Source: an uncultured Flammeovirgaceae bacterium (GTDB lineage Bacteria > Bacteroidota > Bacteroidia > Cytophagales > MED-G16). Taken from it: 35,387 nt of DNA. Positions 5,467-24,128 of the stretch are shown here, piece by piece. The stretch lies in NCBI GenBank assembly GCA_913046795.1, contig CAJWTC010000007.1, positions 1-35,387 of the forward strand. Direction: 5' to 3'. The notes under the pieces were generated by a model. The model did no database searches, had not been told where the DNA came from, and worked only from the letters and a program-made list of their open reading frames with translations. The number at the start of each line of letters is the position of its first letter. Positions within the stretch are counted from its first letter, which is position 1. The position numbers and the translations under genes were made by a program.

Positions 5467-6177
5467 TTGGATATAAAGAGAATAAAGTCTTACGGTTTAG
5501 AGTCACTAGTAATATTATTTAGTATAGTACTATCATTTTATATTGAGGGAAGAAGAGATCTCTCAGAAAAGAACTCAAATAAAAACAAGCTAATCACTGA
5601 TCTAATAAATACTATTAATGAAGATCTTAAGCAACTTGAATACATAAAGTCGGAGATGAATAGGTCATCTAAAATAATAAATGAAATTCAAGGTGATATT
5701 TCTTCTAAAAATAAAAACCTAACAGAAAAGGAGATAATAGATAGACTTACTCTAACAAATGTTTCATATTCTTATTTTGCACAGAAAGGCATTTTCAATC
5801 AGTTAATTGCCACTGGAAGTTTTGAATTGATTGAGAAACAAGAACTTAAACTTCTGCTACTGAAAATATATAATCATCAGAATGATAGAAATAATGCTAT
5901 TTCCATATTAATTGATAACTTCTCAATAGACTTCCTAAATCAAATTTACTCCAAATTTAGAATTGATATAAATCAAAATAACATGGAAGGAGAAATTTAT
6001 GGAGTAAAACAACTTACTGATTATAAATTTAATGAAGAATATTACTTTTCAGATGAATTCTTTGGGTTACTAACAAGAGCAGAAATATATGTTAATAACT
6101 ACTCTAGGCTCATAAATGATATTAGTGAAAACCTAAACCAAGCAAAAATTTACGCTGAATATGAAATCAATGATTAA
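5467..6177 (+). CDS. DUF6090-like membrane-anchored coiled-coil protein
   Basis: The 236-residue protein has one N-terminal membrane helix (LESLVILFSIVLSFYIEG), followed by a long helical, charged region (~30-75) and a mixed C-terminal half. The pattern of helix, then 'xxIxxWNE/GRRD', then a heptad-rich segment resembles the DUF6090 family of flavobacteria, but the match is by eye. Translation appears to start at a TTG 5 nt after the TonB receptor stop, because no ATG is available before the membrane helix. It is probably in the receptor's operon. Its stop overlaps the stop of the convergent repeat protein in the palindrome TTAA. The function is unknown; an envelope accessory to the receptor is an inference from position only. 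Confidence 0.6.
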   Translation: MDIKRIKSYGLESLVILFSIVLSFYIEGRRDLSEKNSNKNKLITDLINTINEDLKQLEYIKSEMNRSSKIINEIQGDISSKNKNLTEKEIIDRLTLTNVSYSYFAQKGIFNQLIATGSFELIEKQELKLLLLKIYNHQNDRNNAISILIDNFSIDFLNQIYSKFRIDINQNNMEGEIYGVKQLTDYKFNEEYYFSDEFFGLLTRAEIYVNNYSRLINDISENLNQAKIYAEYEIND

Positions 6178-11516: not shown

Positions 11517-11614
11517 GATCAGTTATTAAATATCTATTTATATATATTTATATATTAAGATAGTTGTACTTTATTTGAAAATTAAAAAAATATATCAATA
11601 TTGTTAATTAATAA

Positions 11615-13066
11615 ATGAATAAGAAAATTGAAAACTTTATTGATGGAGATTTTATAGAATCAGGTGGTAACTCTATACCTGTTTGGAATCCGCAAGAAGG
11701 CAAAATAATAGCTGAGGTAAACGATTCATCCTCAAATGATCTTAAAATAGCAGTCAAAGCTGCTAAGTCAGCATATATAGGTTGGTCTAATAAAACTCTT
11801 AAAGAAAGAACTGAAATATTTTATGAGTTTAGGAACCAGCTAATAGATAATTTAAATCCTCTATCTGAGTCAATCTGTGAAGAAAATGGAAAAACTTTTC
11901 AAGAAGCAAAAGCAGAAGTATTAAAAGGAATTGAACTTACTGAGTTTGCGTGTTCGATGCCACAAATTATAAATGATGAAATACAAGAAGTAAGTAGAGG
12001 TGTGGAATGTAGATCATCTCATGAGCCTTTAGGTGTAGTTTCTTCAATAACTCCTTTCAACTTCCCAATTATGGTACCTATGTGGACAATACCTAATGCC
12101 TTGATACTTGGAAATTGTATGATATTAAAACCATCAGAACAGACCCCAATTGGTTCTCAAAATATTGCTCAATTACTTAAAAGATCTGGATTACCTGATG
12201 GAGTATTTAACGTAGTAAATGGAGGTAAAGAAATAGTAGAATCAATATGTGATCACCCAGATATTTCTGCCGTTTCATTTGTTGGATCTACAAAAATTGC
12301 AAAAATTGTTTATAAGAGATCTACAAATAATTTAAAGAGATGCCTAGCACTTGGTGGTGCTAAAAATCATTTAATTGTACTACCAGACGCAGATGAAGAG
12401 ATGGCATCAAACGACATATTAGCATCTATGTCAGGGTGTTCAGGTCAAAGGTGCATGGCAGCTTCAGCGATGGTTGGAGTGGGTGATATTGATTCTATAG
12501 TAAAAAAAATGGTAGAAAGTGCTGAAAAAATAGTTCCTGGTAAAAATTTAGGGTCAGTTATTTCAGAAGATGCATTAAAGAGAATTGAAAGATACATAGA
12601 TGAGGCTGAAAAAGATGGGGCTAAAATAATTTTAGACGGAAGGAATTTTAAAGTTAAAGGAAAAGAAAAAGGATATTTTATAGGGCCAACTATAATTGAT
12701 TATGTATCTCCAAATATGAAAATTGCGAAAGAAGAAGTTTTTGGTCCAGTTTTGGCAATAATGAGAACAAACGAGGTAGATGAAGCAATAAAAATTGAGA
12801 ATAGGTCAAGTTACGGGAATGCCTCCTCAGTATATACACAAGATGGTAGATTAGCTGATTATATTTCTGAAAGAGTGAGCGCTGGAATGATTGGAGTAAA
12901 TATTGGTGTCCCTGTTCCTAGAGAACCGTTCTCTTTTGGTGGTTGGAATAATTCAAGGTTTGGCGTAGGAGATATTACTGGAAAAAGTTCTATAAATTTT
13001 TGGACAAGGCTAAAGAAGAGAACAACTAAGTGGAACAAGGGAGCAAAAAGAAATTGGATGAGTTAA
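11615..13066 (+). CDS. mmsA: (Methyl)malonate-semialdehyde dehydrogenase, CoA-acylating
   Basis: The 483-residue enzyme matches the MmsA/IolA branch of the aldehyde dehydrogenases: SRGVECRSSHEPLGVVSSIT (127-146), FNFPIMVPMW (Asn149), LKPSEQTP (171-178) and SGCSGQRCMA with catalytic Cys280. Arginines in SRGV and GQRC correspond to the residues that bind the carboxylate of the semialdehyde in the family. The reaction is (methyl)malonate semialdehyde + CoA + NAD+ to acetyl- or propionyl-CoA + CO2 + NADH, in the cytoplasm. It heads a five-gene operon; the aminotransferase starts 4 nt after its stop. In this context malonate semialdehyde from beta-alanine, or methylmalonate semialdehyde from 3-aminoisobutyrate, is the likely substrate. 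Valine or inositol routes lack partner genes here. Confidence 0.88.
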   Translation: MNKKIENFIDGDFIESGGNSIPVWNPQEGKIIAEVNDSSSNDLKIAVKAAKSAYIGWSNKTLKERTEIFYEFRNQLIDNLNPLSESICEENGKTFQEAKAEVLKGIELTEFACSMPQIINDEIQEVSRGVECRSSHEPLGVVSSITPFNFPIMVPMWTIPNALILGNCMILKPSEQTPIGSQNIAQLLKRSGLPDGVFNVVNGGKEIVESICDHPDISAVSFVGSTKIAKIVYKRSTNNLKRCLALGGAKNHLIVLPDADEEMASNDILASMSGCSGQRCMAASAMVGVGDIDSIVKKMVESAEKIVPGKNLGSVISEDALKRIERYIDEAEKDGAKIILDGRNFKVKGKEKGYFIGPTIIDYVSPNMKIAKEEVFGPVLAIMRTNEVDEAIKIENRSSYGNASSVYTQDGRLADYISERVSAGMIGVNIGVPVPREPFSFGGWNNSRFGVGDITGKSSINFWTRLKKRTTKWNKGAKRNWMS

Positions 13067-13070
13067 AAAA

Positions 13071-14396
13071 ATGAATACTAAAAAATATAATCTAGAAAAT
13101 ACAATTTTTGCTTGGTCAAATCAAAAAGGATTGAACCCAATACATGTAAAAAAAGCTAAAGGTGTTCATATTTATGACGATAATGATAAAAGATATATAG
13201 ACTTCTCGTCTCAGCTAATGAATGTGAATGTTGGACACGGAAGAGAAGAAGTTACAGAAGCTGTAAGAAAACAGATGGAAAAGTTAAGTTATGTAAGTCC
13301 ACCATTCACTACTGACTCCAGAGGATTACTAGGGAAAAAACTTGCAGACATAACGCCATCCAATATTAACAAAACATTCTTCACATTAGGAGGTGCAGAA
13401 TCAAATGAGAATGCTATTATATTAGCAAGACTTTATACTCAAAAACATAAAATAATAACTCATTATAGGTCTTATCATGGAGCGACAATAGGATCAGTTT
13501 CTGCTGGTGGAGACCCCAGAAAGAATGAGATCGATAGTCAACAAGTTCCTAACTTCATACATGTTGAAAATCCATACTACTACAGATGCCCTTGGTACTC
13601 CAGTAGCTTTGAGGAGTGTGGTGATAGAGCAATTAAAAATTTAGAGAAAACCATTCATTACGAAGGTGCTAATAATATTGCCGCCATTATGATGGAGGGT
13701 GAATCTGGAACATCGGGTTGTATAAAATATCCTCCTCTTTATTTAAAAAAAGTTGAAGAATTATGTAAAAAATATGATTTATTACTAATCATTGATGAGG
13801 TTATGAGTGGTTTTTGTAGAACTGGTAAGTGGTTTGGATATGACAACCATTCTATAAAACCTGATATTATCACAATAGCTAAAGGAGTTACATCTGGATA
13901 TATACCTTTAGGAGGGGTAATGGTGTCAGATGAGATTATAAATTCATTCAATGATAAATTTTTACCTCTTGGCCTGACTTACTCGGCACACTCTGTAGCT
14001 TGTGCTGCCGCTGTCTCGGTACTTGATATCTATGAAAATGAGAATGTAATAGAAAATGTTAATAAAATTGGCTCGTATACTGATAAAAAAGTTGAAGAGT
14101 TAATGATTAAACACCCTTCTATTGGAGACTGGAGAAATACAGGGATGCTAGGATGTATAGAGCTTGTTAAAAATAAAAAAAATAAAGACCCCCTAGCTCC
14201 ATTTAATGCAAATCCTAAGCAAATGGAAGACATGAACAAAGTTGTAAGAAAATTAAGAGATGAGGGTATGTTCACCTATACTAAATGGAATTATATTTTC
14301 ATAGCACCACCACTAACATCTTCAGAAGAAGATATTGATGAGGGTATAGATATAATGTCAAAGGCTCTAAAAGTAGCAGATGAATTTTGTTATTGA
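13071..14396 (+). CDS. Class III PLP-dependent omega-amino-acid aminotransferase
   Basis: The 441-residue protein has the class III plan: DFSSQLMNVNVGHG (45-58), GGAESNENAIILAR (107-120), YRSYHGAT (132-139), LLLIIDEVMSGFCRTGKWF (with Asp242) and the Schiff-base lysine Lys271 in IITIAKGVTSGYIPLGGV. An extra Cys-containing stretch, NPYYYRCPWYSS, is like that of the taurine/beta-alanine:pyruvate transaminase group. It should convert an omega-amino acid and an oxo-acid (pyruvate or 2-oxoglutarate) to a semialdehyde and an amino acid. Adjacent mmsA makes beta-alanine or 3-aminoisobutyrate the most economical substrate. Taurine is an alternative by family similarity, but no sulfoacetaldehyde enzyme is nearby. 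It is 4 nt after mmsA and 3 nt before the symporter. Confidence 0.85.
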   Translation: MNTKKYNLENTIFAWSNQKGLNPIHVKKAKGVHIYDDNDKRYIDFSSQLMNVNVGHGREEVTEAVRKQMEKLSYVSPPFTTDSRGLLGKKLADITPSNINKTFFTLGGAESNENAIILARLYTQKHKIITHYRSYHGATIGSVSAGGDPRKNEIDSQQVPNFIHVENPYYYRCPWYSSSFEECGDRAIKNLEKTIHYEGANNIAAIMMEGESGTSGCIKYPPLYLKKVEELCKKYDLLLIIDEVMSGFCRTGKWFGYDNHSIKPDIITIAKGVTSGYIPLGGVMVSDEIINSFNDKFLPLGLTYSAHSVACAAAVSVLDIYENENVIENVNKIGSYTDKKVEELMIKHPSIGDWRNTGMLGCIELVKNKKNKDPLAPFNANPKQMEDMNKVVRKLRDEGMFTYTKWNYIFIAPPLTSSEEDIDEGIDIMSKALKVADEFCY

Positions 14397-14399
14397 TAG

Positions 14400-15911
14400 A
14401 TGGAGACTAAACTAATAATTTTATTTCTCTATTTTCTAATTCTTTTCTTTATCGGTTGGCACTCATCTAAAAGAGTAAAAAATATAAAAGATTATTATGT
14501 TGGAGGAAAGAAATTAGGTTTTTGGGTTGTAGCCTTTTCAACTAGAGCTACTGGTGAATCAGCATGGCTTTTACTTGGTCTAACTGGATTAGGTGCTGTT
14601 GTTGGAGTTAGTGCCTTTTGGGTTGTAATTGGAGAAGTTTTAGGAGTTTTAGGAGCTTGGTTTTTCATGGCCAAAAAATTTAAAAAACTTACCGATAAAT
14701 ATAAATCTATAACTATTACTGATTATTTGGTTTCTAGACTAAAGTCAAAGACAAATCATTTAAGGTACTTATCATCCGTCTTCCTAACTTTCTTCATAAT
14801 AATATATGTAAGTGCACAAATTGATGCTACAGGATCAGCTTTTGAAGCTTTTATGGGTTGGAATTATTTTACAGGTGCTATTTTAGGTTATTTTATAGTT
14901 TTAGCCTATGTCGTATTTGGTGGATTCATAGCTGTAGCGTGGTCTGATCTAATTCAGGGAAGTCTGATGTTTTTGGCTCTAGTTATACTACCAGTAATTG
15001 GCTATTACTCTTTTAACGGCGAATTTGAAATAATAGAAGGTCTAGGTAGAATAGATGGATCATTAATTTCACCTTGGGGATCAGGTGGATTTAATCTGTT
15101 AAATCTATCAACAATTATTGGATATCTGTGCATTGGATTAGCCTTTTTAGGTTCTCCACAAATTTTTGTTAGGTTTATGTCAATAAAAAATGAAGAAGAA
15201 ATTAATAAAGGGAGATGGGTTGCTGTTTTATTTACTTTGATAACTGATTCTTGTGCAGTTTTAATTGGTATGATGGCAAGGTATTTCTTTACAGAAAATG
15301 GTGTTGAAGTTGAAGGAGTACTTGGTAATAATGGACAAAATTCATTAATAATGATGGTTGAAAGTTTATTACCCTTATTATTTATAGGATTTTATATGGC
15401 AGTAGTACTTGCTGCGATAATGTCAACAGTAGACTCCCTCCTTGTTCTTGCATCTAGTGCATTTGCAAGAGATATCTATCAAAATATTTATAATCCAAAA
15501 GTGGAGATAAATAAATTAACACTAATTTCTAAATTGACAACATTTATTATGGCATCGTTTGCATTATTTGTTGCTATAACAGTTGCAAATTTAACTCCAG
15601 AAAGGACAATATTTTGGTTTGTTTTAGTTGGTTTTCATGGAATTGCTGCTAGTTTTTGTCCTACTATAATTCTTTCTCTTTTTTGGAAGGGTCTTTCAGA
15701 AAAAGGAGCAATTGCGTCCATGATAGTAGGCTTTCTTGGTGTACTGATTTTTAAATTCATTGTACCAAGTATTGAGCCTTACGGTATTTATTTTAATAAT
15801 ATTGCTGAGTTAGCCCCTGCTCTATTGTTAGGATTACTTACAGGGTATATATTCTCCATACTTTACCCAAACCCTGAATTAAAAAAGGAACTAGATGAAA
15901 TCTCTAAATAA
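14400..15911 (+). CDS. SSS-family sodium:solute symporter
   Basis: The 503-residue protein has about 13 hydrophobic helices and the SSS/SLC5 hallmarks: an N-terminal IKDYYVGGKKLGFWVVAFS, TRATGESAWLLLG (helix 1 break, sodium-site region), SITITDYLVSRL, YVVFGGFIAVAWSDLIQG and MSTVDSLLVLASSAFARDIY. The overall pattern is closest to the PutP-like proline/amino-acid branch. It lacks the DUF4212 partner used by the second symporter of this window. It follows the aminotransferase after 3 nt and precedes the amidohydrolase by 17 nt. The operon position predicts that it imports the amino acid consumed by the aminotransferase, which is an inference. Confidence 0.87.
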   Translation: METKLIILFLYFLILFFIGWHSSKRVKNIKDYYVGGKKLGFWVVAFSTRATGESAWLLLGLTGLGAVVGVSAFWVVIGEVLGVLGAWFFMAKKFKKLTDKYKSITITDYLVSRLKSKTNHLRYLSSVFLTFFIIIYVSAQIDATGSAFEAFMGWNYFTGAILGYFIVLAYVVFGGFIAVAWSDLIQGSLMFLALVILPVIGYYSFNGEFEIIEGLGRIDGSLISPWGSGGFNLLNLSTIIGYLCIGLAFLGSPQIFVRFMSIKNEEEINKGRWVAVLFTLITDSCAVLIGMMARYFFTENGVEVEGVLGNNGQNSLIMMVESLLPLLFIGFYMAVVLAAIMSTVDSLLVLASSAFARDIYQNIYNPKVEINKLTLISKLTTFIMASFALFVAITVANLTPERTIFWFVLVGFHGIAASFCPTIILSLFWKGLSEKGAIASMIVGFLGVLIFKFIVPSIEPYGIYFNNIAELAPALLLGLLTGYIFSILYPNPELKKELDEISK

Positions 15912-15928
15912 ATATTATATTTAAAGAA

Positions 15929-17584
15929 ATGAAAAAGTTTACAAGAAGAGATTTTGTGGCATCATTACCTCCTTTAGCATTAATGTCGTGTTATTCAGAA
16001 AAAGCTGATATAATATTATATAATGCAGATATTTTAACTGTAAATCCTAATCATCCATCAGCTGAAGCTATTGCAATTAGTGGTGACAAAATTATTGGCA
16101 TCGGAAGTAACGATGACATAATGAATCTTAGTTCAGCATACACTAAAAAAATTAATGTGGGTGGAAAAGTTATAACGCCAGGATTTATTGACGCCCACTC
16201 ACACCCTGCTGGTGCAGGAAGATCACATCTAAGAAATGTGGATTGTGATCTAAGATCTATAGAAGAAATTAAAAATGCAATCTTTGAAAGGTCCAAAAAA
16301 ACACCTAAAGGAGAATGGATTAGTGGATTTAAATATGATGACACTAAGACAAAAGAGAAAAGATATATTAATAATATAGACCTTGACGAGGTATCTCCAG
16401 ATCACCCAGTAATTATAACCCATAGAGGGGGCCATACTGCATATGTAAATTCATTAGCTCTTAAAATAGCTGGAATAGATGAAAATACGCCTGATCCAAA
16501 AGGTGGTAATATTGAAAGAGATTCTGAGACAGGAAGTTTAAATGGGAGACTACTAGAAACTGCTACTTATCTAGTTGAAAAGTTTATACCTAATAAATTT
16601 ACTAGAGCTGATTACCAGGCTGGAGTAAAGCTAATATCCGATATGTTATCAAAATCTGGTATAACGTCTGTAACTGATGCCGGAACTGGAGTAAAATCAC
16701 TTCAGAGCTTTGAAGATGCCTACCATAGTGGAGAACTAAAAACAAGAGTTTATTGTATGATAAGAGGTTATGCTTTTGATGAAGTGAATGATTCAGGAAA
16801 AAAGACTGGGTATGGAGATGAATGGGTAAAAATAGGTGGATTAAAGCTAGTATGCGATGGTTCTATATCAGAGAGAACTGCTAGATTGTCTGAGCCATAT
16901 ATTGGAAGGCCAGATTATTATGGAATAATTATTAATAATGAAGATGAAATATTTGAGCAGGCAATTAAAGCACATTTAAATGACTGGCAAATTGGAGTTC
17001 ACGCAAATGGAGACGTTGGCATTGATATAACTTTAAAAGTATTTGAAAGACTTCAAAAAGAGAAGAATAGAGTTGATCCAAGGTTTAGAATAGAACACTG
17101 TACAATTATCAATGATTCATTAGTTCAGAGGATCAAAGACCTGGAAGTAATACCAAATCCATTCTCTACCTATGTTTATTTTCATGGAGAAAAAATGAAA
17201 GAATATGGAAAAGAAAGGTTAGAAAATATGTTTGCTGTCAAAAGTTTTATTGATGCTGGAATTCCTGTGACTCAAACATCTGATTATCCTCCTGGACCTT
17301 TTGAGCCGATGATGGCTATTCAGTCTAGTGTCACAAGAACTGACTATACAGGTGAGGTATGGGGGCCAAGTCAAAAAATAAGTGTTGAGGAGGCAATAAA
17401 AGTTGCTACAATCAATGGTGCTTATGCATCATACGAAGAAAATATAAAAGGATCTCTCGAGATTGGTAAACTAGCTGACTTAGTTATATTAGGTAAAGAT
17501 CCAAGAAAAACTGATCCTATGAAAATTATAGATATACCTATTGAAAGAACTATGGTAGGAGGAAAATGGTCTTATGAATCTTAA
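15929..17584 (+). CDS. Exported YtcJ-like amidohydrolase (Amidohydro_3), Tat lipoprotein
   Basis: The 551-residue protein has a twin-arginine motif (TRRDFVA, 5-11) and a lipobox LMSC with Cys21, so it is probably an envelope lipoprotein. The TIM-barrel metal motif is complete: DAHSHP with His90 and His92, His358 in GVHANGD, His390 in RIEHC and Asp452 in QTSDYPPGP. Lys306 in GGLKLVCDGS sits where some members carry a carboxylated lysine. A small beta-sandwich formed by both termini (DIILYNADILTVNP; LADLVILGKDPR) frames the barrel. The family hydrolyses amide or imide bonds in N-acylated or formylated compounds. Placed between the importer and the propeller gene, it may release the amine that is then imported. 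Confidence 0.83.
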   Translation: MKKFTRRDFVASLPPLALMSCYSEKADIILYNADILTVNPNHPSAEAIAISGDKIIGIGSNDDIMNLSSAYTKKINVGGKVITPGFIDAHSHPAGAGRSHLRNVDCDLRSIEEIKNAIFERSKKTPKGEWISGFKYDDTKTKEKRYINNIDLDEVSPDHPVIITHRGGHTAYVNSLALKIAGIDENTPDPKGGNIERDSETGSLNGRLLETATYLVEKFIPNKFTRADYQAGVKLISDMLSKSGITSVTDAGTGVKSLQSFEDAYHSGELKTRVYCMIRGYAFDEVNDSGKKTGYGDEWVKIGGLKLVCDGSISERTARLSEPYIGRPDYYGIIINNEDEIFEQAIKAHLNDWQIGVHANGDVGIDITLKVFERLQKEKNRVDPRFRIEHCTIINDSLVQRIKDLEVIPNPFSTYVYFHGEKMKEYGKERLENMFAVKSFIDAGIPVTQTSDYPPGPFEPMMAIQSSVTRTDYTGEVWGPSQKISVEEAIKVATINGAYASYEENIKGSLEIGKLADLVILGKDPRKTDPMKIIDIPIERTMVGGKWSYES

Positions 17585-20489
17585 AGTTGTAAAATTTATT
17601 TCTTTTATAGCATTAACTTTTGCTTTTACATCGAATATATCAGCTCAAGATGATGGAATCACATCTGATTTAAGATGGAGGAATATTGGTCCTGCTAATA
17701 TGATGGGAAGGATAGCAGCAATCGATGCAAGTAATACCGACTACAGGAAGGTACTTATTGCGTCTGCATCTGGTGGAGTATTTAAGTCAAATAATGGAGG
17801 TATTACTTGGGAAAGTATTTTTGATAATTATGGAGCTGGATCAATTGGTTCCGTAAAATTTGATCAAAATAATTTAAACACCATATGGGTAGGGACTGGA
17901 GAATCAGCTAATAGAAATTCAAGCGCGTGGGGTGACGGTATATACAAGTCGGTTGATGGGGGTAAGTCATTTAAAAATATGGGTCTTAAATCAACACATC
18001 AGATTGCAGAGATTGAAATTCACCCTAATAACCCAGATATTGTTTATGCTGCTGCAATAGGTCATCTTTGGGGCTATTCTGGTAAAAGAGGTCTATTTAG
18101 AACTGATGATGGTGGAATGACATGGGATAGAGTACTAGGTGGTTTACCTAATGATGGAAAGACAGGATGTACAGAAATAATCTTCCATCCAGAAAATCCA
18201 GATATTATGTTTGCTGGTTTTTATCACCGGTTAAGACAACCAGCTAGTTTTATTAGTGGTGGAGAGCAGGGAGGTTTGTTTAAAAGTTCTGATGGAGGAA
18301 ATACATGGAGGAAAATTACTGAAGGACTAGCAAAGGGGAAAAGTGGTATGATAGACATATCAATTCATTTAAATAATCCTGATATAATGGTTATGGCATA
18401 TGAAGCTGATGAGAATCTTCCTGAAGATGAGCCTGGAACAGGTGTATATATTTCTTATGATCAGGGTGAAACATGGAAATTTTTATTAAAACATGCTGTA
18501 AGACCATTCTATCATGGTCAAATTGAAATAGATCCAATTGACCCTAATAATATCTACGTAGTATCGAGAGGGTTTATGATATCAAATGATGGTGGAAAAA
18601 GTTTTTCATCCAGAAGATGGCGAACAGATGGAGGAGATGACCATGACATGTGGATTGCCCCAAATGATAATAAAATAATGTACCTAGCTACTGATCAAGG
18701 TTCAAGATTATCAGTTGATGGAGGAGTCAGCTGGTTATCTCATAATAATATGGCAATAGGTCAATATTATGCTATTGGAGTTGACATGAGAGATCCGTAT
18801 CATATTGGAGGAGGTCTCCAAGATAATGGATTGTGGATGACTCCTAGTAATAGCAGAGAGTACAGAGGAATTTTAAATATGCACAGTACATGGATTGCAG
18901 AAGGAGATGGGTTTCATACACAAATAGATCCCGATGACTGGAGGACAGTTTATACTGTAAATCATGTAGGGTTTGTTGCCAGACAAAATATTGAAACAAG
19001 AGAGTATAGTTTTATAACACCAACTCCAGAAACAATTTCAAATTTTAAACAATTTGTAGATTACAATTACGACGAGACAAGAAATAAATATACTATTGAT
19101 CCAGGTGAACATTGGTTCTTTAGAGAGAGGCCAGAGAGACCTCTCCTACCACCACAATTTAGATTTAATTGGAGCAGTCCATTTATAATATCTTCTCATA
19201 ATTCAAAAAAAGTTTTATTTGGTTCAAACCATTTATTTCAATCTTATAACAGAGGTGATAATTGGAAAATTATTAGTCCTGATCTGACTACCAATGATAA
19301 AAAGTTAAGAAATACTTCAGATGGAGGGGGATTAACAAATAGTAATACTGGTGGTGAGAATCACTTTACAATAATAACCATAAGTGATACACCAATTGAT
19401 ACTTTATCGATCTGGGTTGGTACTGACGATGGAAATGTTCAGGTAACAAGAAATAATGGAGATAGCTGGGATAACGTGAAGATGAATATTAAAGGAGTAC
19501 CTGATAAAATATGGGTTAGTAGAGTTGAGGCATCAAAGCATGTAAAAGGAAGGGCATATGTCTCCTTTGATAATCACAGATTTGATGACAATAAACCTTA
19601 TGTTTTTGTTACAGAGGATTACGGAAAAACTTGGAAGAATATTAGCTCAAACCTACCAATAGATTATTCTGTATATGTTATAAAAGAGGATCCTATTGAT
19701 AAAAAATTACTTTTTGTTGGAACCGAAAAGTCAGTGTACTTTAGCAATAACAGAGGTTTGTCTTGGGAAAAACTTGGAAGTAATTTACCGACAGTTGCAA
19801 TTCATGACCTAGTAATTCATCCGAGAGATGGAGATTTAATTGTTGGAACTCACGGAAGGAGTATTTGGATCTTAGATGATATATCACCACTTAGATTTTT
19901 AAATGAAGAAAATGATAACCTTCTTCCAACGAGGGTATCTACTAAATGGGTAAAAATAAATAAAGGGAGAAAACAACCTTTTTTTGAATTTAGAGGTAAA
20001 AATCCACCCTATGGGTCAATAATTAATTATTTTAGTACAACTAATACAAAAGGTGAGTTGATAATATCAAAAGATGAATCTGAATCGAATCAAAATGCTC
20101 CTAGTTTCAGAAAGTCTATAGAAATAAATAAAGGGATAAATAGATTCATTTGGCCTTTTACATTAAAAAGGACAGAAGAGGAATTAATTAATTACAGAGA
20201 TAAATTCATTGGCATAAAAGATTCTTTCAAAGAAATTGTAGTTGATAAAAAAGAACTAAATTCTTATAATTTTAAAGATCAAAAATCTTTCAGTGACATA
20301 AATAAACTAAGAAAGAAATTCCTAGATAATTATGGTATGTATGCTAATGGAAAGAAAATATTTGGGGATAAATTATATAATGAATTTGATATCGAGAAAG
20401 GAATATATAATGTTATGATTCGCCTTGATAATGGAGATAATTTTAAAGATAAAATTATTGTGAGAGAGGACCCATTAAAATCTAATTAA
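17574..20489 (+). CDS. Exported VPS10/sortilin-like BNR propeller protein
   Basis: The 971-residue precursor has a signal peptide (ending near SNISAQ) and at least eleven Asp-box motifs of the type S-x-D/N-x-G-x-T/S-W. They include SNNGGITW, SVDGGKSF, TDDGGMTW, SSDGGNTW, SYDQGETW, SNDGGKSF, SVDGGVSW, SYNRGDNW, TRNNGDSW, TEDYGKTW and SNNRGLSW. These define one or two beta-propellers. The C-terminal ~170 residues have no such motif and end in a beta-rich domain. Proteins like this are frequent beside peptidases and amidohydrolases in marine Bacteroidota; whether they bind or cleave substrate is not established. Sialidase activity is not supported, since the catalytic set of that family is not evident. 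The start overlaps the amidohydrolase end by 11 nt. Confidence 0.8.
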   Translation: MNLKVVKFISFIALTFAFTSNISAQDDGITSDLRWRNIGPANMMGRIAAIDASNTDYRKVLIASASGGVFKSNNGGITWESIFDNYGAGSIGSVKFDQNNLNTIWVGTGESANRNSSAWGDGIYKSVDGGKSFKNMGLKSTHQIAEIEIHPNNPDIVYAAAIGHLWGYSGKRGLFRTDDGGMTWDRVLGGLPNDGKTGCTEIIFHPENPDIMFAGFYHRLRQPASFISGGEQGGLFKSSDGGNTWRKITEGLAKGKSGMIDISIHLNNPDIMVMAYEADENLPEDEPGTGVYISYDQGETWKFLLKHAVRPFYHGQIEIDPIDPNNIYVVSRGFMISNDGGKSFSSRRWRTDGGDDHDMWIAPNDNKIMYLATDQGSRLSVDGGVSWLSHNNMAIGQYYAIGVDMRDPYHIGGGLQDNGLWMTPSNSREYRGILNMHSTWIAEGDGFHTQIDPDDWRTVYTVNHVGFVARQNIETREYSFITPTPETISNFKQFVDYNYDETRNKYTIDPGEHWFFRERPERPLLPPQFRFNWSSPFIISSHNSKKVLFGSNHLFQSYNRGDNWKIISPDLTTNDKKLRNTSDGGGLTNSNTGGENHFTIITISDTPIDTLSIWVGTDDGNVQVTRNNGDSWDNVKMNIKGVPDKIWVSRVEASKHVKGRAYVSFDNHRFDDNKPYVFVTEDYGKTWKNISSNLPIDYSVYVIKEDPIDKKLLFVGTEKSVYFSNNRGLSWEKLGSNLPTVAIHDLVIHPRDGDLIVGTHGRSIWILDDISPLRFLNEENDNLLPTRVSTKWVKINKGRKQPFFEFRGKNPPYGSIINYFSTTNTKGELIISKDESESNQNAPSFRKSIEINKGINRFIWPFTLKRTEEELINYRDKFIGIKDSFKEIVVDKKELNSYNFKDQKSFSDINKLRKKFLDNYGMYANGKKIFGDKLYNEFDIEKGIYNVMIRLDNGDNFKDKIIVREDPLKSN

Positions 20490-22614
20490 TCTCTCCGCTT
20501 GCTAGCCTTGATAAAAAATCAGCAGTTGACTTATTAACCCTCATCTGATTCTCAAACATCATGAAATGATGAGTATCGTCAACAATAACCATTGTCTCCA
20601 TATAAACATCTGTATTTCTTAACCTTTGAACCAAATCTGTACTCTGTTTAAAATATACATTTCTGTCATCATCAGCATGAATAATTAGTACCGGTGACTT
20701 CCATGTGTTCACATCTGCAATAGGAGATGATTCCCAAGCGGTTTCTCTTGCTAATTCATAATCCGGAGCTTTCTCATAGTTAATAGAGTTTAGATATCCG
20801 TATAGAGTTCTATCATGTACACCATGAATATCAACTCCACCAGAGAATAATTGAGAATCTCTACCAAGTGCCATAGCAGTTAGATAACCTCCATAACTAC
20901 CACCATATACATATATCCTATCATTATCTATATGATTTTGATCTTTAAGCCATAACCCAGCTGCTTTTACGTCTTTGTACTCTGAAGCACCCCTAGTACC
21001 TCCATCAATTGGATTATGAAATTCATATCCATACCCAATTCCTAGTCTATAATTAACTGATATTACAACAAAATCCTTACTTGCTAAATATTGGTTTAGA
21101 GCATAAGCATTTGAGTAGTAAGATGAATAATGCCAACCTAATAACATTTGTCGAGGAGGCCCACCGTGAATATATATTATAGCTGGTTTATTTTTTTTAT
21201 TATCGTTCTTCTCAAATTTTGTAGCATAAACTTGAATACCATCTGTTGATTTAAATTTTATTTGTGTTGGTATTACCATTTTTTCTGAAGGAAAATCATC
21301 AGGAATTCTATTTTGAGCTAATATTTTCTTTTCATTTGTACCTAAATCTAAAATAGTAGGAAGAGGCGGCCTAGTTGAGGTGGCACTTATATAAGCCACA
21401 TATCTCAAATCACCAGTTACTAATGGAGTCCACTCCAGACCGATACCATTAGTAAGAACTTTCATATCTGACTTATCAACTGATACTTTAACGATATGTC
21501 TTCTGTCTATATCATACTTATCATCCCCCGTATTTGCAGTAAATACGAGTGATTTTTTATCAGGAGATAATTTTATGTACTCACACATAAAATCACCAGG
21601 AGTTAATAATAGAGCCTTCCCTCCATTTTCAGATATAGAGTATAGATGTTGCCATCCATCGTGGTAAGATAAAAATACAATCCTATTGGTTGCCCAGTGT
21701 AAATTTGTTCCTCCCTGAGTCCGTGGGTAAGAACCCCTTAAAGTTTTAGGGGCTGTCCATAACTCTTTACTTTCCAATGAGTTTATATCTGTCTTCACTA
21801 TTTTCCATGGGTTATGTTTCCTACCTAAAATAGAGCTAGGTTTGCCTGCAGCACCTGGTTGTCTTATGTAAACAATTTCTTTCCCGTCTGGTGACCATCT
21901 TGGAGAAGTATCTCTGTCGAAAGATGGGTTTATCCATTTAATACTTTTTTCAGAGAGGTTCGATAGCATTCCTCCTGAAGCTAAATTAGCAGCCTCATAA
22001 ATTCCAATAAAAGATCTGTCACCTCTATATGAAACAAATGCTATTTTTGATCCGTCAGGGGACCATGAATGAGACCCGTTTCTTCCTCTTGAATGAAATA
22101 TTTTCTTAGGATCACCTTCACCATCTATAGTCGATATCCATATCTGTCCATCTTTAATATATGCAATTTCATTACTAAGTGGTGAAATAACTGGATTTAT
22201 TCCCTCATCAATCATTATTGGATCACCACCTTTAAAAGGCACACTCCAAATCTGAACCTTCGGGGGGTCAGGATTAAAAGTCGGATTAACTGGAAGATCA
22301 TCATCCCAATTAGAACCAAAGTCACCTCCCCTTATGTATACTACCCAATTACCGTCAGAAGAAATAGAAACACTTGAAAGCTCTTGACCTGTATCATCCA
22401 TGTAGGAGGTCAATCTTCTAGCAATAAATGTTGGTCCTTCAGCAACATATATGTTTCTCTTTCCTTGCTCATCAAATGCCCAGGAAATTCTTGAGGAATT
22501 AGAGGAACCAGTCAACTCATTAGGGAAAGGATATGATTTTATTTGATCCAGACTAAATTCTTCCTGAGAGAAACAAGAAAATGAGAGGAAAAATAAAAGA
22601 ATAAATAATCTCAT
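20482..22614 (-). CDS. S9-family prolyl oligopeptidase/dipeptidyl peptidase
   Basis: The 710-residue precursor has a signal peptide (MRLFILLFFLSFSCFS). An N-terminal propeller of TolB/WD-like repeats (SHSWSPDGSKIAFVSYRG, SPRWSPDGKEIVYIRQ) is followed by an alpha/beta-hydrolase domain from about 440. The catalytic triad is visible: Ser573 in GGSYGG, an Asp at about 650 in HADDDRNV, and His at about 682 in DDTHHF. The oxyanion strand is IIYIHGGPP. Family members cleave after proline or at the N-terminus of short peptides in the periplasm. The gene lies 3 nt downstream of the S10 carboxypeptidase, so the two act as a pair on opposite ends of peptides. Its 3' end overlaps the convergent propeller gene by 8 nt. 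Confidence 0.9.
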   Translation of the reverse strand: MRLFILLFFLSFSCFSQEEFSLDQIKSYPFPNELTGSSNSSRISWAFDEQGKRNIYVAEGPTFIARRLTSYMDDTGQELSSVSISSDGNWVVYIRGGDFGSNWDDDLPVNPTFNPDPPKVQIWSVPFKGGDPIMIDEGINPVISPLSNEIAYIKDGQIWISTIDGEGDPKKIFHSRGRNGSHSWSPDGSKIAFVSYRGDRSFIGIYEAANLASGGMLSNLSEKSIKWINPSFDRDTSPRWSPDGKEIVYIRQPGAAGKPSSILGRKHNPWKIVKTDINSLESKELWTAPKTLRGSYPRTQGGTNLHWATNRIVFLSYHDGWQHLYSISENGGKALLLTPGDFMCEYIKLSPDKKSLVFTANTGDDKYDIDRRHIVKVSVDKSDMKVLTNGIGLEWTPLVTGDLRYVAYISATSTRPPLPTILDLGTNEKKILAQNRIPDDFPSEKMVIPTQIKFKSTDGIQVYATKFEKNDNKKNKPAIIYIHGGPPRQMLLGWHYSSYYSNAYALNQYLASKDFVVISVNYRLGIGYGYEFHNPIDGGTRGASEYKDVKAAGLWLKDQNHIDNDRIYVYGGSYGGYLTAMALGRDSQLFSGGVDIHGVHDRTLYGYLNSINYEKAPDYELARETAWESSPIADVNTWKSPVLIIHADDDRNVYFKQSTDLVQRLRNTDVYMETMVIVDDTHHFMMFENQMRVNKSTADFLSRLASGEIN

Positions 22615-22617
22615 ATA

Positions 22618-24093
22618 TTAATATTTAGCCGGAGATGTTGGGATAGTATTCTTAATGAAATCTCTAATATCATCGTTAGAGTTTTTAAGATCTTCTCTCC
22701 TCAAATACATCATGTGACCACTCTCATAACCTTTAAATGATAACCTATCCTTCATCTTACCACTTGGATCAATATGCCACATAGTATATTTTGCATCAAA
22801 ATATTGTGTTGCTCCATCGTAATATCCTGATTGTATCATCACGTTAAGAAATGGATTTTTTGCCATAGCCTGCCTTAGGTTATCACCTGTTCTGTCATTA
22901 TCTCTATTCCAAGGCCTAACGTTCCCCCAGACATTATAGTTCATATTTGTCTTATAATTTAATTCGTTGTTAAGATAATACTGCATTGCAGGAGTAAAAG
23001 CATGATCCCACGCGTCAAGTTCAGGATAACTTCCAACTGATACTCCAGAGTTTTTCTTATCAATACCTCTGTACCTAGAATCAAGTCTTCCAAGAATAAA
23101 CCCTTCATCATTAAGTAATTGTTTCCAAAAATATTGATCTGTAACATCCAGATTATTATCTAAGAAGTCTCTTTCAGAAAGTCCTGAGTATTTTGCTGCA
23201 ACTTTTGCAATTTCAGATCTTTTCTCATCAGAAATTGAATTTCCAAGTGTAATTGCTGGTAAAAATTGTTCTACTGTAAATGTTTCTACCTCTGCCAAAA
23301 GATCTAAAAGCTTCTTTTCTTGCAAATCATCTCCCAACTTGTCATGATACCAAGCTGTAGCGGCAAAATATGGTAGCCTGAGAGCTGAACCTACTGGACC
23401 ATCTCTGTCTATTCCTAATCCGGTAGGAGAAACTAATATTACTCCATTAAGATAAGTTGTATGGTAACGACTTTGTAACTCAAGAGCAAGTCCTGAACAC
23501 CTGGTAGTACCATAACTCTCACCAATCAGGTATTTTGGAGATATCCACCTATTATATTTATTTATAAAATCTTCAATCCACTGAGCTAAATATTTTATAT
23601 CTGAGTTAACTCCAAAAAAGTTAGATCTGTCATAATCTTTATCAAGTATTCTTGAAAGTCCTACATTTACAGGATTGACATAGACAATATCAGCGACATC
23701 AATTATAGAATAGGGATTATCTTTTATACCATATGGTTGAATTGGGAAACCTTCATCATCAATATTTAGAGTTCTTGGGCTAGTATATCCCATGTGCATC
23801 CAGATTGAAGCTGCTCCAGGTCCACCATTAAATGAAAAGAATATTGGTCTGTTCTTTACATCCTTCACGTCAGATCTCTTATAATATGTATAAAACAAGG
23901 TTGCGACAGCTTTGTCATCATCACTCCACACCGGTAGTGTTCCAGCAGTAGCTGAGTAAGGAATTCTAGTCCCATCTACTGTTACAAAGTGATTAGTTAC
24001 AACAGAACTTTCAGCTTCTATACTTCTAGTTACCTGCGATAAAAGATTATTACTAAAAAGGGAAATTAAGGTTATTATAATAAAGTTTTTCAT
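22618..24093 (-). CDS. S10-family serine carboxypeptidase, exported
   Basis: The 491-residue precursor starts best at the ATG at 24093, which gives the signal peptide MKNFIIITLISLFSNNLLSQ. A TTG 21 nt upstream would add residues in front of it and sits in a terminator stem. S10 motifs are FNGGPGAAS (88-96), GESYGT with Ser193, SGYYDG (Asp426) and ESGHMMY (His460), completing the triad. Members remove C-terminal residues from peptides, often at acidic pH. It is followed after 3 nt by the S9 peptidase on the same strand. Its start codon is only about 10 nt beyond a strong intrinsic-type hairpin. Confidence 0.88.
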   Translation of the reverse strand: MKNFIIITLISLFSNNLLSQVTRSIEAESSVVTNHFVTVDGTRIPYSATAGTLPVWSDDDKAVATLFYTYYKRSDVKDVKNRPIFFSFNGGPGAASIWMHMGYTSPRTLNIDDEGFPIQPYGIKDNPYSIIDVADIVYVNPVNVGLSRILDKDYDRSNFFGVNSDIKYLAQWIEDFINKYNRWISPKYLIGESYGTTRCSGLALELQSRYHTTYLNGVILVSPTGLGIDRDGPVGSALRLPYFAATAWYHDKLGDDLQEKKLLDLLAEVETFTVEQFLPAITLGNSISDEKRSEIAKVAAKYSGLSERDFLDNNLDVTDQYFWKQLLNDEGFILGRLDSRYRGIDKKNSGVSVGSYPELDAWDHAFTPAMQYYLNNELNYKTNMNYNVWGNVRPWNRDNDRTGDNLRQAMAKNPFLNVMIQSGYYDGATQYFDAKYTMWHIDPSGKMKDRLSFKGYESGHMMYLRREDLKNSNDDIRDFIKNTIPTSPAKY

Positions 24094-24100
24094 GATATAA

Positions 24101-24128
24101 TTAAAAAAGGCCAAACATAGTTGGCCTT
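24101..24128 (-). terminator. Intrinsic terminator after the 24154-24600 gene
   Basis: Read on the minus strand, a perfect 8-bp stem (AAGGCCAA / TTGGCCTT) with a 6-nt loop CTATGT is followed by six T, two of them within the stem. It lies 26 nt after the stop of the membrane-protein gene and ends about 8-10 nt before the ATG of the S10 peptidase. The loop-stem side also contains TATGTTTG, a match to the Bacteroidota -7 box TAnnTTTG, but no -33 TTG is found at the usual spacing. Confidence 0.85.

Follow-up and report, generated by a model that had tools for sequence, protein, structure and literature searches.

Gene organization of the locus

The window, a stretch of 35,387 nucleotides, corresponds to contig 7 of a 1.23 Mb genome that is 63% complete; among its relatives, those with names are marine MAGs (Marinoscillum sp., Flammeovirgaceae and Rhodothermaeota MED-G19). 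Five consecutive plus-strand open reading frames encode a dehydrogenase (MmsA), an aminotransferase (AT), a sodium:solute symporter (SSS), an exported amidohydrolase and a β-propeller (Table 1). Their spacing of 4, 3, 17 and -11 nt, as described in the original prediction, agrees with the ORF coordinates. The gene order is kept in same-genus relatives, which argues against a chance cluster. The five genes had been read as a single unit; the mmsA-AT-SSS-amidohydrolase core of that unit stands, and both of its boundaries need correction, with the propeller wrongly included and a Peptidase_S58 gene, part of the unit in relatives, omitted. A search for a simple Bacteroidetes-type promoter pattern gave no match ahead of mmsA, S58 or the propeller gene.

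Table 1. Features at the locus, with coordinates in the window
Feature	Coordinates	Strand	Remarks
hlyIII-mmsA intergenic region	11517..11614		Peptidase_S58 gene occupies this site in relatives; absent here in the window
mmsA, predicted CoA-acylating (methyl)malonate semialdehyde dehydrogenase	11615..13066	+	TIGR01722; catalytic motifs kept
Class III aminotransferase (AT), PRK06062 group	13071..14396	+	Orthologous to AT of Bacteroidota pyd clusters
Sodium:solute symporter (SSS), PutP-like	14400..15911	+	PF00474
Putatively exported Amidohydro_3 (YtcJ-like) metallo-amidohydrolase	15929..17584	+	PF07969; Tat-type lipoprotein signal; metal ligands
Asp-box/Sortilin-like β-propeller	17574..20489	+	Sortilin-Vps10/BNR repeats; flanking backbone gene, not a cassette member

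Distribution of the cassette among related genomes

Comparison of 15 genomes of the family revealed that AT, mmsA, the amidohydrolase and S58 are present in an identical set of nine; two such 9-of-15 sets would coincide by chance about 1 time in 5000 if kinship is ignored. The symporter is kept in every cassette examined. In the remaining six genomes, nothing separates hlyIII from the propeller gene, and S10 comes next, usually with an S9 gene as well (L041-L045); at one empty site (L046) the contig stops within the propeller. The backbone-gene tree places the empty sites at three separate points, and G010 is empty though it is a close sister of the cassette-bearing G012. As the cassette genes lie side by side, one deletion is enough to account for each loss. 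Joint absence therefore partly reflects linkage, and the pattern marks a unit without by itself establishing shared function. The genes S58-mmsA-AT-SSS-amidohydrolase, lying between hlyIII and the propeller, thus form a cassette that is removable as a unit.

The propeller occurs, at ~79-85% identity, in every one of the 15 genomes, the six without the cassette genes among them. Since it is kept with hlyIII directly adjoining in cassette-free genomes, it is a backbone gene. Its proposed role in substrate capture is contradicted by this distribution, and the empty-site genomes rule it out as a member of the system, its presence or absence failing to track the other genes. Together with an S10 carboxypeptidase-like gene, likewise found in 15 of 15 genomes, and an S9 gene found in most, it forms a conserved peptidase/propeller block (window positions 17574-24114).

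Aminotransferase and MmsA

The AT is a class III enzyme (PF00202) with PRK06062 as its best NCBIfam model (480.8 against a cut-off of 472) and its PLP lysine in the motif IAKGVTSG. The closest solved structure by sequence is taurine:2-oxoglutarate aminotransferase (6jix). MmsA scores 514.8 bits against TIGR01722 (cut-off 448.5) and retains the catalytic motifs GQRCMA and GGAKNH; this curated score and the motifs predict CoA-acylating (methyl)malonate semialdehyde dehydrogenase activity. Throughout the group, MmsA carries a Lys, in the helix QRGIE, where the 4zz7 enzyme has Arg.

A search of the phylum beyond the family turned up 19 AT orthologues with 54-64% identity. At 18 of these 19 loci mmsA adjoins the AT gene, and at 16 the AT lies within a reductive pyrimidine (pyd) cluster that includes dihydropyrimidinase (TIGR02033, 601 vs 393). 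PreA (640 vs 335) is mostly present in these clusters, accompanied by a nitrilase-family enzyme where ureidopropionase would be expected, a PreT-like protein and often an NCS1 permease. In the AT tree, the family enzymes cluster together (100/100) and branch with three groups of pyd-cluster ATs (86/93), which places the family AT inside the pyd-cluster clade with moderate support.

The last steps of the reductive pyrimidine pathway comprise a β-alanine aminotransferase and, in some clusters, a malonate semialdehyde dehydrogenase, and pyd clusters carrying PydD and MSDH have been described (PMC7332683). The cassette resembles these clusters in its orthologous AT and MmsA, which are adjacent in the phylum in the order mmsA then AT. 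It differs in having no dihydropyrimidine dehydrogenase, dihydropyrimidinase, ureidopropionase or NCS1 permease at the locus, and in carrying an S58 peptidase, an SSS symporter and an exported amidohydrolase. A bicistronic operon of Pseudomonas sp. AAC encodes a β-alanine aminotransferase and a malonate semialdehyde dehydrogenase that together yield acetyl-CoA (PMC4907197); the same two-step chemistry is proposed for the cassette, whereas that operon, as described, lacks these export and uptake genes.

The AT-MmsA pair had been predicted to convert β-amino acids via semialdehydes to acyl-CoA, a module that gains support from the AT orthologues standing with MmsA in pyd clusters. By this orthology, the AT is a probable β-alanine/3-aminoisobutyrate aminotransferase. 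Near the C-terminal end of the enzyme, the family alone has a Lys (Lys406) where 19 of 19 outside orthologues keep an Arg, a change that may have shifted the substrate.

The family genomes yielded no close dihydropyrimidinase: the best matches, in 10 of the 15 genomes, have only 23-28% identity, and the window genome (63% complete) gave no match. At the locus itself, family members show neither PreA/PreT nor ureidopropionase. Given the dihydropyrimidinase result, the AT-MmsA pair appears as the tail of the Pyd pathway without its head, and pyrimidine degradation was rejected for the window's family.

S58 peptidase

In relatives, the S58 gene encodes about 389-402 residues, with 389-390 in those of the same genus, and shares 4-8 nt with mmsA. 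The window genome lacks it at the hlyIII-mmsA site, and two halves of the gene lie at the ends of contigs C25 (L039:2-628) and C50 (L040:1-621). The protein matches DmpA (1b65, E 6e-104) and BapA (3n2w, E 6e-98), keeps the Gly-Ser autocleavage site and bears a Sec-like signal peptide. These features place it in the DmpA/BapA β-aminopeptidase family as a putatively exported enzyme, and it is a cassette member in relatives. DmpA/BapA enzymes of family S58 have been discussed in connection with carnosine (PMC9570944); the present proteins share their sequence family and autocleavage site and differ in being clustered with AT and MmsA, an arrangement for which no published report was found in the open-licence literature.

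Independent trios of AT, S58 and mmsA also occur in two other families, f50 (G577, G823) and f34 (G294, G881), at loci L089, L098, L093 and L106, where the AT best fits PRK06062 but falls below its cut-off. The other S58 orthologues examined outside the family, some of them on short contigs, have neither AT nor mmsA nearby. Because the trio recurs in two other families, S58 is a strong candidate for the enzyme that releases the β-amino acid and feeds the AT-MmsA pair, and this recurrence is the best evidence for such a role. A tryptophanase-family gene lies next door to the f50 trios (L089, L098).

Amidohydrolase and symporter

The amidohydrolase (Amidohydro_3, PF07969, 313.7) contains an HxH, Lys, His, His, Asp ligand set. 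The predicted ligands His90, His92, His358, His390 and Asp452 are all found in the sequence, and the set is completed by Lys306, likely the usual carboxylated, bridging lysine. An N-terminal RR motif is followed by LMSC, and the lipobox is visible in family orthologues though not in L038; the signal reads as Tat lipoprotein type, suggesting an exported enzyme. Both the RR motif and the metal ligands are invariant in eight orthologues. The AlphaFold model (mean pLDDT 42) was too poor for a structure search.

No relatives at E 1e-140 or better were found outside the family in the phylum sample. Within the order, a single close relative from another family (L038, 59% identity) lies at a contig end, and the available stretch carries no AT. 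Plasmid-borne relatives are all below 60% identity, at 31-35% among the 20 listed, and are too distant to be informative. Characterized enzymes of the same family include the Bilophila wadsworthia metalloBSH, which cuts taurine-conjugated bile salts and releases taurine (PMC13081902), and a YtcJ-branch enzyme that cuts N-ε-acyl lysine (PMC10699109). By analogy, release of an amino acid from an N-acyl or related amide is plausible here. The metalloBSH shares with the cassette enzyme its Pfam family, secretion, a six-residue metal site of the same kind and the logic of supplying an omega-amino acid to a consumer. It differs in its 101 kDa size, its extra C-terminal domain and its gut bile-salt substrate.

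The symporter belongs to the SSS family (PF00474, 244 bits) and is PutP-like, but its score of 316.8 against TIGR02121, with a cut-off of 515.5, excludes it from PutP by the curated rule. It probably imports the released amino acid, although that substrate is one we infer.

Inositol genes in sister genera

In two sister genera, iolB, iolC, iolD and iolE follow S58-mmsA and so stand between mmsA and AT (L023:2100-14498; L047:6960-13991; L048). Where the contig is long enough, the block also includes iolG, an SSS symporter and a second iolG-like gene. The likeness to a myo-inositol (iol) operon lies in the MmsA orthologue (76-77% identity) that heads the block; the window genus, in contrast, has no iol genes at this locus. 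Given the position of the block, the sister-genus MmsA probably has a second role as IolA. In pyd clusters mmsA and AT are generally neighbours, which makes insertion of the iol genes between them the simpler reading and deletion of iol in the window genus the less simple one.

The window mmsA is 79-82% identical to same-genus copies and the relocated S58 ~80%, compared with 85-94% for AT, symporter and amidohydrolase. This greater divergence suggests that mmsA and S58 of the window genome were replaced by recombination.

Proposed pathway and alternatives

We favor, with reasonable though not high confidence, a cassette for scavenging β-amino acids composed of S58, MmsA, AT, symporter and amidohydrolase. 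The basis is the protein families, the conserved gene order, joint presence and absence, and the orthology of AT and MmsA with pyd-cluster enzymes; every substrate, release by both exported enzymes and uptake by the symporter are steps that we infer. At the envelope, exported S58 would cut β-alanyl or other β-aminoacyl peptides, and the Tat-exported amidohydrolase would free amino acids of this kind from an N-acyl or related amide. The Na+ symporter would import the free β-amino acid, AT would convert β-alanine or 3-aminoisobutyrate to malonate or methylmalonate semialdehyde, and MmsA would convert the semialdehyde to acetyl- or propionyl-CoA. In the window genome, S58 would act from another locus. 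Counting against the proposal are the linkage behind the joint absence, the Lys406 change of the AT, the symporter score below the PutP cut-off, the low identity of the listed plasmid-borne amidohydrolase relatives and the lack of an AT on the available stretch around L038. S58 enzymes also cut α-peptides, and most S58 orthologues elsewhere stand alone.

These same stand-alone orthologues, and the M20, S9, S10 and M24 peptidases also encoded in the window, fit a more general scavenging of peptides and N-acyl amino acids, with S58 and the amidohydrolase acting on α-peptides or acyl amino acids and AT-MmsA serving only intracellular β-amino acids. We regard this account as unlikely, given that S58 overlaps mmsA, shares its phyletic pattern and recurs with AT and MmsA in other families.

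Another account, which we consider quite improbable, has the AT using a different omega-amino acid (taurine, GABA or a diamine) freed from an N-acyl conjugate by the amidohydrolase, with MmsA unrelated and serving inositol catabolism. The proximity of AT to 6jix, its Lys406 change, the taurine-releasing secreted Amidohydro_3 enzyme (PMC13081902) and the separation of MmsA from AT by the iol block in sister genera all speak for it. Against it, the AT is close (54-64%) to pyd-cluster ATs that adjoin mmsA, and in same-genus genomes, where the locus lacks iol genes, mmsA still lies 1-4 nt from AT. To our knowledge, moreover, neither sulfoacetaldehyde nor succinate semialdehyde is an expected MmsA substrate.

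The five-part system as first drawn, in which the propeller would bind substrate for the amidohydrolase, is highly improbable: the two ORFs overlap by 11 nt in the window and the propeller follows the amidohydrolase in cassette genomes, but the propeller is equally kept where the other genes are missing.

Implications

No description of this gene combination was found in the open-licence literature, the individual enzymes being of known kinds. On the β-amino-acid reading, we tentatively suggest, short of holding it probable, that the cassette is a previously undescribed system by which streamlined marine bacteria use β-aminoacyl amides or peptides, the Pyd tail having been recruited behind exported S58 and Amidohydro_3 enzymes of unrelated folds. 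Such a system would imply a natural marine β-aminoacyl pool worth a dedicated cassette and would provide a concrete marine route for using peptide- or amide-bound β-amino acids. It would also give a likely physiological role to some S58 β-aminopeptidases and to one branch of the mostly uncharacterized YtcJ family. A shared MmsA would let related genomes swap upstream pathways (pyrimidine, inositol or β-peptide) around it.

Elsewhere in the window, the ORF at 5467-6177 corresponds to two tandem copies in two relatives (L014:554-1989 and L015:566-2001).
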